Shown here: in pieces, positions 44,735 to 54,050 of the stretch
Layout of the letters: the number at the start of each line of letters is the position of its first letter
How positions within the stretch are numbered: the first letter of the stretch is position 1
NCBI GenBank assembly: GCA_022925895.1
Contig: JAKSYS010000079.1
Location: forward strand, 1-64,000
DNA from: Fragilaria crotonensis
Lineage: Eukaryota > Bacillariophyta > Fragilariophyceae > Fragilariales > Fragilariaceae
Reading direction: 5' to 3'
DNA length: 64,000 nucleotides
Notes under the pieces: model-generated
Told to the model about the DNA's origin: nothing
The model's database searches: none
Seen by the model: only the letters and a program-made list of their open reading frames with translations
Made by a program: the position numbers and the translations under genes

Positions 44735-45513
44735 GTGTCAGTATCAGTACAGTTATCAGTATCGAGCAGAAGGATGTTGGATGCGAACAAAACAAAGGCA
44801 AGGCAATCACAACGTCATGCCATTGACAGAAAGGTGGTTGCCGGTGAAATGGAACGTTGAACGCACAAAGAAGCAATCGTACCTTTGGCCGCTTTGGCAA
44901 CCTCTGTGCGTTATACTCGGAGTACCAAGTACAGACTGCATACCTGGTTCATACACGGAAAAGAGGGTTGACTGTAGAGGTGTTCAAGTCTAAGTAGAAC
45001 CTACTTCGTCTTGACAGTATGACATTTGCGTTCCGAACACTTGTGATATGATTCGGCTCACAGCGTTTTCGGTCGCCTCTCGCGCTGTTGCATGGTGCAT
45101 GCTGGATTCCGAAATCCTCAACAACAATAACCAAAGGTGTATGCGTACTGTGTACGAAGGACCAATACAGGAACAGGTGGCGTACTGGAATACCATATAT
45201 GAAATATGAATGTAACTAACCGTACATACTCTGCGTCTTTGTTTTCGTACTGGGAGTATGACATCGTCAACTCCCAGTCTCACAGATCCTACTTGCATCA
45301 CAAAAAGCAGGTACATCTATTGTACGAATGCAAGTACTCCCAAGTACATTGTACTGTGCTGGTACCTGGTACCGGCCGAACGAGGCGCGTTCATTCAACT
45401 CGCATCCCCCTTCACAGTCTGCCACGCCCATCCATGTCTTCCATCTCTCATCATTAAGGAAGAGTCCGTGATGATGGTACCAGGGTAATCTCAAATGTGA
45501 TGATGGGATAGTA
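44735..45513. other. Divergent intergenic region
   Basis: Between starts of the VWA gene (minus) and the RWD gene (plus), so it should hold both promoters. One TACTCGGAGTA copy lies at 44914-44924, and GTACCTGGTACCGG at 45361-45374 is near-palindromic. No gene supported. Confidence 0.35.
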
Positions 45514-46455
45514 ATGAATGTTGATATGGAACAAATAGAGCGAGCCGTTCTAGAGATTGAGGCACTCCAAGCTATTTACGAGGACAAGTTTACAGTGTAT
45601 TCCAAAACAAAGCTCCATGATACACAGATCGCTCTCGCTCAATATCATGAAGACCCTCAGACTCAACAGCTCCATTGTGAAAGTCACTTTGCCATTCCTG
45701 AACTAGAGATTGGACTCGGTATAATTGATATGGACCACAGACACAGCAGCGACAACGACACGATGCTGCAGTTGCATTTTTGTCTCCCACCTGGCTATCC
45801 TGAATCAAGCCCGGCACGAGTTCGGCTTTCCCATTGTGTGAAATTCTCCAAAAAGGTGCAAGACGACCTTTGTGTCCAATTAAATGAGAAAGCGCACGAA
45901 TTGATTGGACATGAAGCAATCCTGCTGCTTGTCCAAGAGCTTCAGGAAGTTTTGGATCAGTTGTCGACACAGGACAACACGTCTCAACCTGACACGGAGT
46001 ACTTGTCCAGATCTGCTACTGCTACAGCAGGAACTACTGCTACTACAACTTCTGTATTGGAAGGACCAGCAACTCTCCACAAAGTAGATTTGGAACGGCG
46101 GTGGATATGGGCCCATCATATCCTTGATCCTGCTAGGCGCAAATCAATTGTGAAGGAGGCCTTGGATTTAGGGTTGGGTGGCTATCTCAAACCAGGATAT
46201 CCGGGAATTGTTGTGGTGGAAGGCGATGCGTCGGCATGTGAGGAGTTTGTCCATTGGATCAAAGGCAACAAGAGCCGTCCCGGTGGATTTGGCCGAAATT
46301 GGGGACATCATGTCAAGGGTGAACTGCGCATCATCGATCGAATCCTACTAACCCCATTTAGGGAATTGGATGAAGGCATGAAGGAGCTCGGCGCACTCTG
46401 CAAAGAGCATGGTCTCAACGACGAATTTTTGGAATACGTAATGCAGCAGAAATGA
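45514..46455 (+). CDS. RWD and DUF1115 domain protein (RWDD2-like)
   Basis: Single exon of 313 residues. The N-terminal RWD domain (about 8-150) starts with ALQAIYEDKF, contains the characteristic LPPGYPESSPARVRL strand-turn, and ends in a long helix LVQELQEVLDQL. A short Thr/Ala-rich linker follows. The C-terminal DUF1115 domain (about 190-310) has RRWIWAHHILDPARRKSIVKEALDLGLGGYLKPGYPGIVVVEG, EEFVHWIKG and RFRELDEGMK-type helices with GHHVKGELRIIDRI. This order matches eukaryotic RWDD2 proteins, whose biochemical role is not settled. RWD folds mediate protein contacts, often near ubiquitin or GCN2-type systems. The gene's stop lies about 90 bp from the SECIS of the next, convergent gene. Confidence 0.88.
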   Translation: MNVDMEQIERAVLEIEALQAIYEDKFTVYSKTKLHDTQIALAQYHEDPQTQQLHCESHFAIPELEIGLGIIDMDHRHSSDNDTMLQLHFCLPPGYPESSPARVRLSHCVKFSKKVQDDLCVQLNEKAHELIGHEAILLLVQELQEVLDQLSTQDNTSQPDTEYLSRSATATAGTTATTTSVLEGPATLHKVDLERRWIWAHHILDPARRKSIVKEALDLGLGGYLKPGYPGIVVVEGDASACEEFVHWIKGNKSRPGGFGRNWGHHVKGELRIIDRILLTPFRELDEGMKELGALCKEHGLNDEFLEYVMQQK

Positions 46456-46544: not shown

Positions 46545-46607
46545 CACCTTGTTCGTGCTCAGGATCATGCCAGCATTTCATGAATCCGTCATTCCGAACA
46601 AAAGGTG
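46545..46607 (-). promoter_or_regulatory. SECIS-like element in the MsrA 3' UTR
   Basis: On the minus strand, 22 nt after the MsrA stop. The lower helix pairs CACC (46607-46604) and TTGTTCG with CGAACAA and GGTG, 11 base pairs with a 2-nt bulge. Then come the conserved ATGA (46592-46589) and, opposite it, GA (46560-46559), the sites of the non-Watson-Crick quartet. The upper helix pairs GGAT and CATG with CATG and ATCC (8 bp, one bulged T). The 9-nt apical loop starts with AAA (46578-46576). The spacing between ATGA and AAA is 10 nt, as expected. Eukaryotic SECIS elements direct selenocysteine insertion at UGA through SBP2. Confidence 0.85.
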
Positions 46608-46629
46608 GGCAAGCCAATCCAAACCGATT

Positions 46630-47325
46630 TTAAAAATATCCAGTTCCTCCGGTGTGCTTCCTTAAATAATCCTGATGATAGTCCTCGGCCTGGTAGAACG
46701 GCCCTGCATCCTCCACGTCTACGTACAGCTTACGAGGCTTGATGGTTGCAGTCGTTCTTGCTGTTGTTCCACCAAAGCCATGTTGCTGCATCGTCATGTG
46801 TTGAATTTGATCCATGGCACACGATCGTTCGAATTCATTCTTGACCCAAATGGCGGATCGGTATTGTTTGCTTTGTTTGTATTGAGGATTATGCAGTTCA
46901 GACCACTCCTTCAGAATGGTTTGATAGGAAATTACAGAAGGATCATATTCAATCAGAATTGCTTCCGTAGCATCCAAGATGCAATCGTACGTGGGATTCT
47001 TCTCCACCCCACCCGTATACCCCACAACCGTTCGAACAATACCCTGCATGGATTCAAAATGCAGTTGAGGGTGCCAAAATCATCCCAAGGCCAAAATGCA
47101 AGTGTCGTATTCTGGAGAGAGCAGAGGGGTGGTGGGAATCTCCGGACAGTCGTTGCTTGCAGCAGCTGCCGCTACTGCTGATGTTGTTCGTTTGGATGAC
47201 ACAGAGACGACACCTCTGCCCCTGTACCTCATACTAGCAGCAGCGAATGCTACTGTGTACTCGAAGAAGAACGCCAACAGCAAGACTACCGGTAGTAGCT
47301 TCAGCAGCGATCGGCGAAGCAACAT
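46630..47325 (-). CDS. msrA: Selenocysteine-containing peptide methionine sulfoxide reductase A
   Basis: One frame of 231 residues from the ATG at 47325, interrupted only by TGA at 47082-47080 (codon 82). The TGA occupies the catalytic position: LALG-[TGA]-FWHPQLHFE corresponds to the family motif GCFW. Downstream are VVGYTGGVEKNPTYDCILDATEAILIEYDP, SYQTILKEWSELHNPQ, SAIWV and AEDYHQDYLRKH, all MsrA signatures. Conservation on both sides of the TGA and a SECIS-like hairpin in the 3' UTR (46545-46607) show that TGA encodes selenocysteine. MsrA reduces methionine-S-sulfoxide in proteins with thioredoxin; Sec raises its rate. The N-terminus is a signal peptide (LLKLLPVVLLLAFFFEYTVAFAAAS) with an AFA site, so plastid or secretory targeting is likely. 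Selenoprotein MsrA is known from green algae such as Chlamydomonas. A standard gene caller would split this gene. Confidence 0.93.
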
Positions 47326-48773
47326 CAGAGTGAATGAGGAATGATATATAAGTACAACCACAGGTACACGTACTTGTACCTGGAAGGTCCGGCCCAAGCA
47401 CGCTCCAGCCGTTATTTGTGAAATCGATGAGCGCTGACGCCAGCCGTCCTCCGATTGGCGTGATGCGACAATTTTAGCGATCTTGTTGATCCAACCGAGC
47501 CGGCAAGGTCTTTCTTTGTCAGCAATTTTTTCAGTCTGTCAGCAAATTCTGTAACTAAATTCTTAGTGTCAGCAAATTTTGTCAGCAAATTTTTGCAGAT
47601 CAGGGTCGAAACCACCAGGATGACGAATTTTGACGTCAGCAAGATGTCACGGAATGTTTCATCAAGGGAATTTCGGTTATGAAACTGAAACATGGGCACA
47701 TGTATTCCTCTATTTATATAGCTTGAATATTGAAATGTCATACTAGGGATACACACGTTGTATGGAGTTCTACCTACTGTATTAGGTGCCGTTTGAATCT
47801 TTGTGTGAGCCATTGAGCCGCGCCCATATTCAAATTTGACAGCCACGAGAGTCCCTGTACAAGAATACTGATACGTACATTTCTACGGAACTGGATTCGG
47901 CACACAATTGGATTCACAATTCCAATAAAATGTAATTTGGGACAATGGACCCCAGCTGACAATCTGCTTGTAATATCTCTGTAGTTCACTTCTTTTTTTC
48001 TTTCCAATCTGTGCATTTACAGAACATGTAGTAATTGTAGTCATTATTTGTGGAAATGGGATTGAAGCTCTCTGCTTTTGATTGATAATCTTGTCATTTT
48101 TCTGAGGAGGATGACACCAACACCGGTGTACAAGCACCAGTATCGCATCAATTCCATATTGACAAATCTCACGACGGTAATGCCGGAGTACTGTACCAGG
48201 CAACCTGAGTACTCCAGTGTAGTAGTAGAAGTAGACCTGCGTAGTCTCCAGTAGAGTTAGTGGATGTACAGCAAATGTAGGCTTCGAAGTAAGACGTATA
48301 TTGAACTCGGGTATGTATCAGGTATTACCTATGATATGATACCATGGACCACTCGAAATATTTTGTACTGTAGTATACCCTGATGACAAGTTACGAACAT
48401 CATTCTCTCTTTGTGTACGACGTGTGCGTAGAGGTGAGTATGACATACTTGTATACCACTCGCAGGTATGCACACCAGGTAGGAACATATTCGAGTGCAT
48501 GTGCATGCCGTTAACGCCAACAGAACAATCGCAACAGGAATGTGATGCACACATAATGTAAGATTCCCATCGTCAATTAGCTACTACGCGTGGAATTAAT
48601 TTTCTACGCAATCTTTGTGTATGGACTCCACATGCTGACGTCAAAAATCGTCACTCTGGTGGTTTCGACTCGGATCTCAAATCAGATTGTCGTAAGCAAA
48701 TTGTGTCAGCAAATCAGCAAATTTGATTGTCGTAAGCAAATTGTATCAGCAATTCAGCAAAATGCTCCTTAAG

Positions 48774-53051: not shown

Positions 53052-53529
53052 TAAAAGAAAAACGTGAGTCTTGGATTCCCATGTCCACGGCGACATAAAC
53101 TAATGTTCTACTATGAAAGCCAATTCTGTAAACAATTATTTTTGCTGACGAAGCAAATTCGATTCACCCTAAGCAATTTTTTTGCTGAATCAGCAAATTC
53201 GATTCTCCGTAAGCAATGTTTTTGCTGATTCAGAAAATTTGCTTTTCAGTAAGCAAATTTGCTTTTCGTAAGCAAATTGTTTAAGCAATTTTATTCTGTC
53301 AGCAAATTTGTCTTCCTGTAAGCAAATTTTTTTGCAGACGCCAGCTGCACTATAATCACGCCGGCATATCCAGTTTTACACCAGCCAGACATTGAACGGA
53401 ACCGATTTCTCCTCCGGCCGGCGCGTTTCTTCTTTATTCACGATTCAGTACCTATGTGCCGGACCTTCCTGTCTCCCCGCACCCCACACACACGTCCACT
53501 GCACTGCATGCTGCATAGACTCCAGACTG

Positions 53530-54050
53530 CAGGAAGGTCCGGCAATACACGCTTAGTCGTGAATCAAGGTCGAATTCACGCTGGCCGGAGGCGAAAATCA
53601 TTTCCGTTCTGTGTCTGGCTGGTGCTAAACTGGTTATGCCAGCGTCATCGTCGTTTTGCTGACACTTGCTGACGAAAAGACAGATCTGCTGACATCCGCT
53701 GACAAAAAACGAATTTGCTGACGTCTGCTGACGAAATTCGAATCTGCTGACATTTTCTGACATATGATGACGAAAACGAGTTTTTTCCAGTACAAAAGCT
53801 ACGGTGATGCTGACATCTTCTGACGTTTGCTGACGAGAATCAAGTTTGCTGACATTTGCTGACGAAAAGCAAATCTGCTGACATTTGCTGACGAAAAAGA
53901 AATCCGCTGACATTTGCTGAACCTTGCCAGCTCGAATGATACGACAAAGATCCTAACAAGCTCTCATCACGCCGGCCGGTCATTGGCTGGCGCGCACATC
54001 CTTAAGGTACATCTGTTAATCGCGAAACGTGCTTGGGCCGGACCTTCCAG
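53530..54050. mobile_element. Short non-autonomous copy of the GTCAGCAAAT-repeat element, inverted
   Basis: 521 bp starting CAGGAAGGTCCGGCA (53530-53544), which is the exact complement of 53457-53471 of the neighbour element, and ending GCTTGGGCCGGACCTTCCAG (to 54050), the complement of the neighbour's left end. The interior is almost filled with TTTGCTGACGAAA-like units (about 53655-53920, roughly fifteen GCTGAC cores). Only 58 bp of other DNA separate it from the larger copy. It has no coding capacity. A MITE-like derivative of the same family. Confidence 0.6.

Follow-up and report, generated by a model that had tools for sequence, protein, structure and literature searches.

Selenocysteine (Sec)-containing forms of methionine-S-sulfoxide reductase A (MsrA) are in print for the algae Thalassiosira pseudonana and Ostreococcus and, as cited in the same paper, for Chlamydomonas; in its accessible text, one MsrA is listed among the 16 selenoprotein genes of T. 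pseudonana (PMC2375036). In the consulted parts of two papers on algal selenoproteomes, MSRA is counted among the algal selenoprotein families and diatoms are credited with 20-44 selenoprotein genes (PMC7539508), and both MsrA and a bacterium-like form, MsrA_b, are reported in green algae (PMC6627142). The bacterial MsrA of Clostridium oremlandii is a natural selenoprotein with ∼20 times the activity of its Cys version and is recycled by glutaredoxin, according to the available portions of its descriptions (PMC4333827, PMC4479559). An algal Sec-MsrA as such is not new.

The gene described here lies in the window (the whole stretch of DNA that was analysed, 64,000 nucleotides) and belongs to the same MSRA family as that in the algal selenoproteomes, as far as the excerpts of those papers describe it (PMC7539508, PMC6627142). 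We put the probability at about 95% that it is a nuclear gene of a diatom or near ochrophyte relative, that it is intact, and that it specifies a selenoprotein MsrA, the UGA at codon 82 being read as Sec; it almost certainly encodes a Sec-bearing enzyme that would repair oxidised methionine. Compared by description with the systems of T. pseudonana and Ostreococcus, as given in the accessible text, an algal Sec-MsrA is common to both, with the difference that at least three such genes appear to be present in this genome. A search of titles and the opening lines of abstracts returned no publication that reports more than one Sec-MsrA paralogue from a diatom. Like C. oremlandii MsrA (PDB 4LWJ, 4LWL, 4U66), the window protein would carry Sec at the same site, and both have a shorter stretch before QY(R/M)S than a typical Cys MsrA (HNPQY-KQS-KQYRS, HNPVYETTNRQYMS). 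The bacterial protein is devoid of Cys and carries an additional helical domain at its C-terminus. Several Cys are present in the algal protein; set against the 1-Cys type of Sec-MsrA that C. oremlandii represents, it contains Cys60, Cys76, and others, ends after the catalytic domain, and has no C-terminal helical domain.

An MsrA reading frame with a single internal TGA

The following features were read on the minus strand of the window:

46630..47325, minus strand: MsrA reading frame of 231 residues if TGA is decoded as Sec, intron not required; PF01625 match at E 5.4e-32
47325-47323, minus strand: start ATG of MsrA, read from the sequence
46632-46630, minus strand: stop TAA of MsrA, read from the sequence
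47080..47082, minus strand: in-frame TGA (putative Sec82) where the GCFW motif has its catalytic Cys; shared at this codon by the paralogues on contigs C871 and C164

Within the frame 47325-46630, the single internal stop is the TGA at 47082-47080, flanked by GGA and TTT-TGG, and the catalytic G-C-F-W motif is present as GUFWHPQ, with TGA replacing the Cys codon. The first-pass annotation had named this codon as the sole break in the frame and had placed it at the catalytic Cys, with coordinates that proved exact. PF01625 matched the read-through frame over residues 76-226 (E 5.4e-32; 111.6 bits against a cut-off of 23.7), and the TGA, at residue 82, therefore falls inside the domain; the NCBIfam msrA model reached 95.0 bits (E 5.6e-27), below its cut-off of 108.1. 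Removal of the TGA codon by splicing would disrupt the conserved G-x-FWxPQ stretch.

Other genes of the window specify a chlorophyll a/b-type light-harvesting protein and a factor of the HSF type, which fits a diatom or another ochrophyte. Degenerate runs of a TTTGCTGACA-like repeat occupy positions 47510-47600, upstream of MsrA, and the repeat perhaps occurs again at 53452-53952 on the minus strand (∼53.5-53.9 kb).

Two paralogues share the TGA codon

The genome assembly that holds the window comprises 62 Mb in 881 contigs, and an MsrA search of it gave 14 matches, several being exons of one gene. Cys-type MsrA genes were among them (e.g., on C621, C545, and C427), as were two further genes whose catalytic codon is TGA:

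C871:42566-43053 (L010): Sec-type MsrA paralogue, GUFWGPQLYF, TGA at the catalytic codon; one 77-base intron elsewhere in the gene
C164:92312-92686 (L006, L009): Sec-type MsrA paralogue, GUFWGPQPEF, TGA at the catalytic codon; no intron

These are diverged from the window MsrA, at 43.8% (C871) and 38.9% (C164) identity. Downstream of the TGA, the three paralogue pairs (131, 119, and 116 codons compared) showed 56/46/89, 53/37/78, and 50/43/83 differences at codon positions 1/2/3, and the third-position excess in all three is as expected under protein-level selection past the TGA. Upstream, the comparison extended up to 30 codons and drew on less sequence (27, 26, and 26 codons), so that the evidence there is thinner; the counts were 13/9/20, 10/11/20, and 17/17/17, the last, from the C871/C164 pair in 26 codons, having no third-position excess. 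The in-frame TGA stands at a redox position, and the coding sequence to either side of it is conserved, more thinly documented on the upstream side.

These comparisons bear on the proposal that the window copy alone suffered pseudogene decay or a sequencing error, a Cys codon (TGC or TGT) having become TGA, with the hairpin behind the gene due to chance. The change would take one base; however, TGA occupies the same codon in both diverged paralogues, the frame is otherwise intact with a third-position excess downstream of the TGA in 3/3 pairs, and the same break recurs in database relatives. Decay or error is very improbable and, judged from the paralogues, nearly refuted. Less expected is that a single algal genome apparently contains at least three genes for Sec-MsrA.

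Database relatives and exchange between Sec and Cys

A search of 5.8 billion proteins returned 567 matches at E ≤ 1e-10, of which the best 120 were listed, and a second, profile search returned 1122 at E ≤ 1e-25, again with the best 120 listed. Twenty relatives were examined from the first (P0001-P0019 and P0047) and 20 further ones from the second (P0122-P0139 in list order, P0143, and P0186). In viral contigs, queried with the single MsrA protein, no relative was found. Every one of the 16 relatives with the best E-values among the 567 bore the mark of a TGA, 12 by starting downstream of it and four by having Trp at the site within a shared, conserved G-W-F-W-x-PQ. Across all 40 examined, 27 begin downstream of the site (not an unbiased rate, because P0143 and P0186 were chosen for shortness), seven have Trp (P0002, P0007, P0008, P0010, P0135, P0137, and P0139), and six have Cys. 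Transcript names of the MMETSP are attached to P0005, P0006, P0122, and P0127. The Trp entries probably reflect gene calling under code 4, in which TGA would be translated as Trp.

Truncation of such a gene by ordinary gene finders had been anticipated in the first-pass annotation, and this is borne out by P0001, 96% identical to the window protein, which begins with MQGIVRTV at a Met 11 codons past the TGA. P0123, the 125-residue CTEN210_09495 of the diatom Chaetoceros tenuissimus, likewise starts just past the expected Sec codon and is probably a mis-annotated selenoprotein MsrA. Public gene models, the C. tenuissimus record included, are written as if the TGA were a true stop, the functional product being either the 139 residues from the downstream Met (MQGIVRTV...) or an 81-residue N-terminal piece. 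Yet the downstream product would have no catalytic residue, FW motif, or leader, and those relatives whose sequences reach that far conserve both the FWxPQ flank and the segment between CPEIP and the TGA, so that a true stop at this codon is highly unlikely.

A phylogeny was built from 43 rows, 40 of them from the database, with P0128, P0131, P0137, P0139, and most Cys homologues left out. The C164 protein paired with the Trp form P0135 (support 100/97), apparently as part of a separate lineage common to the two, whereas the position of C871 is unsure because of its long branch. The Cys forms P0018, P0124, and P0126 fell among rows bearing the TGA mark, at deeper nodes that are not strongly supported (85/82, 85/79). 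Alternation of Sec and Cys at this codon had been proposed as a check on the selenoprotein reading, and the placement of the three Cys forms fits a Sec-to-Cys exchange.

A SECIS-like hairpin behind the gene

46545..46607, minus strand: SECIS-like hairpin in the 3′ UTR, with an 11-bp lower helix, an ATGA/TGA core, and an 8-bp upper helix

The lower helix begins 22 nt past the TAA and is formed by CACCTT(TT)GTTCG and CGAAC-AAGGTG (6+5 = 11 bp; 46607-46595 paired with 46555-46545), followed by ATGA (46592-46589), an apical loop that opens with AAA (46578-46576), and GA (46560-46559). All of these elements, the spacing included, had been listed in the first reading of the DNA and were exact on rechecking. 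A 91-nt stretch including the hairpin folded at -32.8 kcal/mol (z -3.0), with 0/200 shuffles equally stable, and the 65-nt core gave z -2.87, with 1/200 equally stable.

A custom scan for the classical SECIS core (RTGA, helix, AA in the apical loop, GA, and lower helix), its rule drawn up with the target hairpin already known, found 10 matches on both strands of the window, among which the MsrA hairpin ranked first at -22.6. Among 5000 shuffles of the 300-nt 3′ flank of MsrA, 129 gave any match and eight an equally good one; in five shuffled windows, the best scores ran from -19.8 to -22.5. The score is therefore no proof by itself, and it is the position right behind MsrA that counts; that it lies within range of the best chance match in a shuffled window counts in favour of a chance hairpin behind a decayed gene. 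Support from the custom scan is moderate. Rfam SECIS_1 gave no match in the window or at the MsrA locus, and none over the genome at E ≤ 10 among the 133 of 1211 candidates scored.

The SECIS elements of the two paralogues are uncertain, as the 3′ flank of C164 is without a SECIS fold (158/200 shuffles fold equally well) and the C871 candidate requires a CC apical loop (8/200 shuffles equally stable). A lenient version of the custom scan was neither sensitive nor specific, in that it did not separate Sec from non-Sec flanks: a Sec-type SelT flank scored -12.2 versus -12.5 for its non-Sec paralogue, and two Cys-MsrA flanks scored -13.6 and -9.3. For the glutathione peroxidase gene described below, its best matches begin inside the coding region and are given no weight. 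An RWD-domain gene (45475-46455, plus strand) is convergent with MsrA, its TGA stop ∼90 bases from the hairpin on the opposite strand, which leaves little space for 3′ UTRs.

Other selenoprotein genes and the Sec machinery

Two other genes in the genome have TGA at a redox position:

C173:54882-55295 (L022): Sec-type SelT, CVGU, TGA at the redox position
C76:97959-98174 (L026): Sec-type glutathione peroxidase, NVASQU, TGA at the redox position

A SelT paralogue near the first (L023) has EECG at the site, with TGA absent. Part of the machinery for Sec was also recovered, namely an eEFSec frame of 781 residues with PF00009, PF21208, and PF21131, a PSTK-like protein (TIGR03575, E 2.5e-24, below cut-off), and a SelD-type domain fused behind a pyridine nucleotide oxidoreductase (L041, C753:64624-65583). 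The SelD-type protein scored 262 bits with TIGR00476 (selD), above the cut-off of 125, and 367 bits with the NCBIfam ‘fusion_not_SelD’ model, below the cut-off of 700; it has Cys (GGCGAK) rather than Sec.

The genome profile searches treated each exon separately after a permissive initial screen, on an assembly that may be incomplete, and for these reasons the missing tRNA-Sec and SepSecS are no refutation. For SepSecS, PF05889 gave no candidate in the genome. For tRNA-Sec, Rfam gave five matches in the genome, all below cut-off, with 53 of 5073 candidates scored. Four of these are on C881, where the three loci run in ARAGORN were tRNA-Leu, tRNA-Ser, and tRNA-Gly, and the fifth, on C327, is a tRNA-Ser. 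Two anticodon/T-loop patterns for tRNA-Sec had 30 and 17 genome matches; the one inspected among the 30 (L039) was not tRNA-like, and none of the 17 loci had an Rfam match at gathering level.

The seven database entries with Trp at the site also raise the prospect of an altered nuclear code in which TGA means Trp, and some TGAs in the genome are untidy: a glutathione peroxidase match (L029, C282:57705-57920) has two off the redox site, near the frame end, and a KTI12 match (L047, C172:66128-66739) has one stop of each kind. Both look like frame ends, frameshifts, or decayed copies. Against such a code, the eEFSec (781 codons) and SelD-type (855 codons) genes are open under the standard code, TGA is found at the redox position in three MsrA genes, one glutathione peroxidase, and one SelT, and Trp is incapable of the catalysis. 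We regard a change of code as extremely improbable, and UGA-directed Sec as the preferred reading.

Predicted structure, targeting, and proposed mechanism

An AlphaFold2 model, built with Cys at residue 82, had a mean pLDDT of 81.9, with ten-residue blocks over 61-180 at 92-98, and the MsrA fold of the window protein was recovered in this model and by Foldseek. Of the 44 best Foldseek matches, 43 are MsrA structures by title, and the exception, at rank 4, takes its title from a glutaredoxin partner; the top three in the PDB all come from C. oremlandii MsrA, as variants U16C/E55A, U16C, and U16C/E55D. C. oremlandii MsrA entries also ranked first in a sequence search of the PDB. Two further features of the protein bear on its targeting and chemistry:

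47230..47325, minus strand: hydrophobic N-terminal leader ending VAFAAAS-M, a predicted signal peptide and possible plastid transit peptide
47146..47148, minus strand: Cys60, within CPEIP and 22 residues N-terminal to Sec82; a candidate for the resolving residue

The model places a helix at residues 8-31, in the leader, with low to middling confidence, and a targeting leader on this MsrA is likely; its removal would leave a protein of roughly 22-23 kDa, as estimated from the number of residues. As judged by eye, the window protein, C871, C164, P0002, P0137, and P0139 each have a hydrophobic leader with an (A/S)-F motif behind it. An (A/S)-F after a hydrophobic stretch is what we take to be the diatom plastid motif, and it suggests plastid use of the window MsrA; the leader-bearing MsrAs would enter the secretory route and perhaps the plastid.

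In the mechanism that we propose, the ribosome would decode the UGA at codon 82 as Sec through the putative 3′-UTR SECIS element and eEFSec. The Sec82 selenolate would attack Met-S-sulfoxide, methionine would depart, and a selenenic acid would remain on the enzyme. Either a neighbouring Cys (Cys60 or Cys76) or an external thiol, e.g., glutaredoxin, may then resolve this acid. Because the best PDB sequence and fold matches are to the natural selenoprotein of C. oremlandii, the window MsrA most likely works like that enzyme. The Cys of the CP-x-I motif is kept in the window MsrA, C871, C164, P0002, P0007, P0008, and P0010, and Cys60 of CPEIP is the proposed resolving residue.

Implications

The first-pass annotation had called the locus a eukaryotic selenoprotein gene, a view strengthened by the TGA codons of C871 and C164, the TGA mark in database relatives, the Cys forms, the glutathione peroxidase and SelT genes, and eEFSec. 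The gene is a clear example of a catalytic UGA at which gene predictors truncate or misread a protein, with the same damage in the public records of its relatives. A tentative and rather unlikely extension is that diatom-like algae hold an expanded set of secretory, probably plastid, Sec-MsrAs in which the conserved upstream CPEIP Cys resolves the selenenic acid. If true, this recycling route through CPEIP would differ from that of common MsrA, in which a C-terminal Cys resolves, as well as from that of the Cys-free Sec-MsrA of bacteria.
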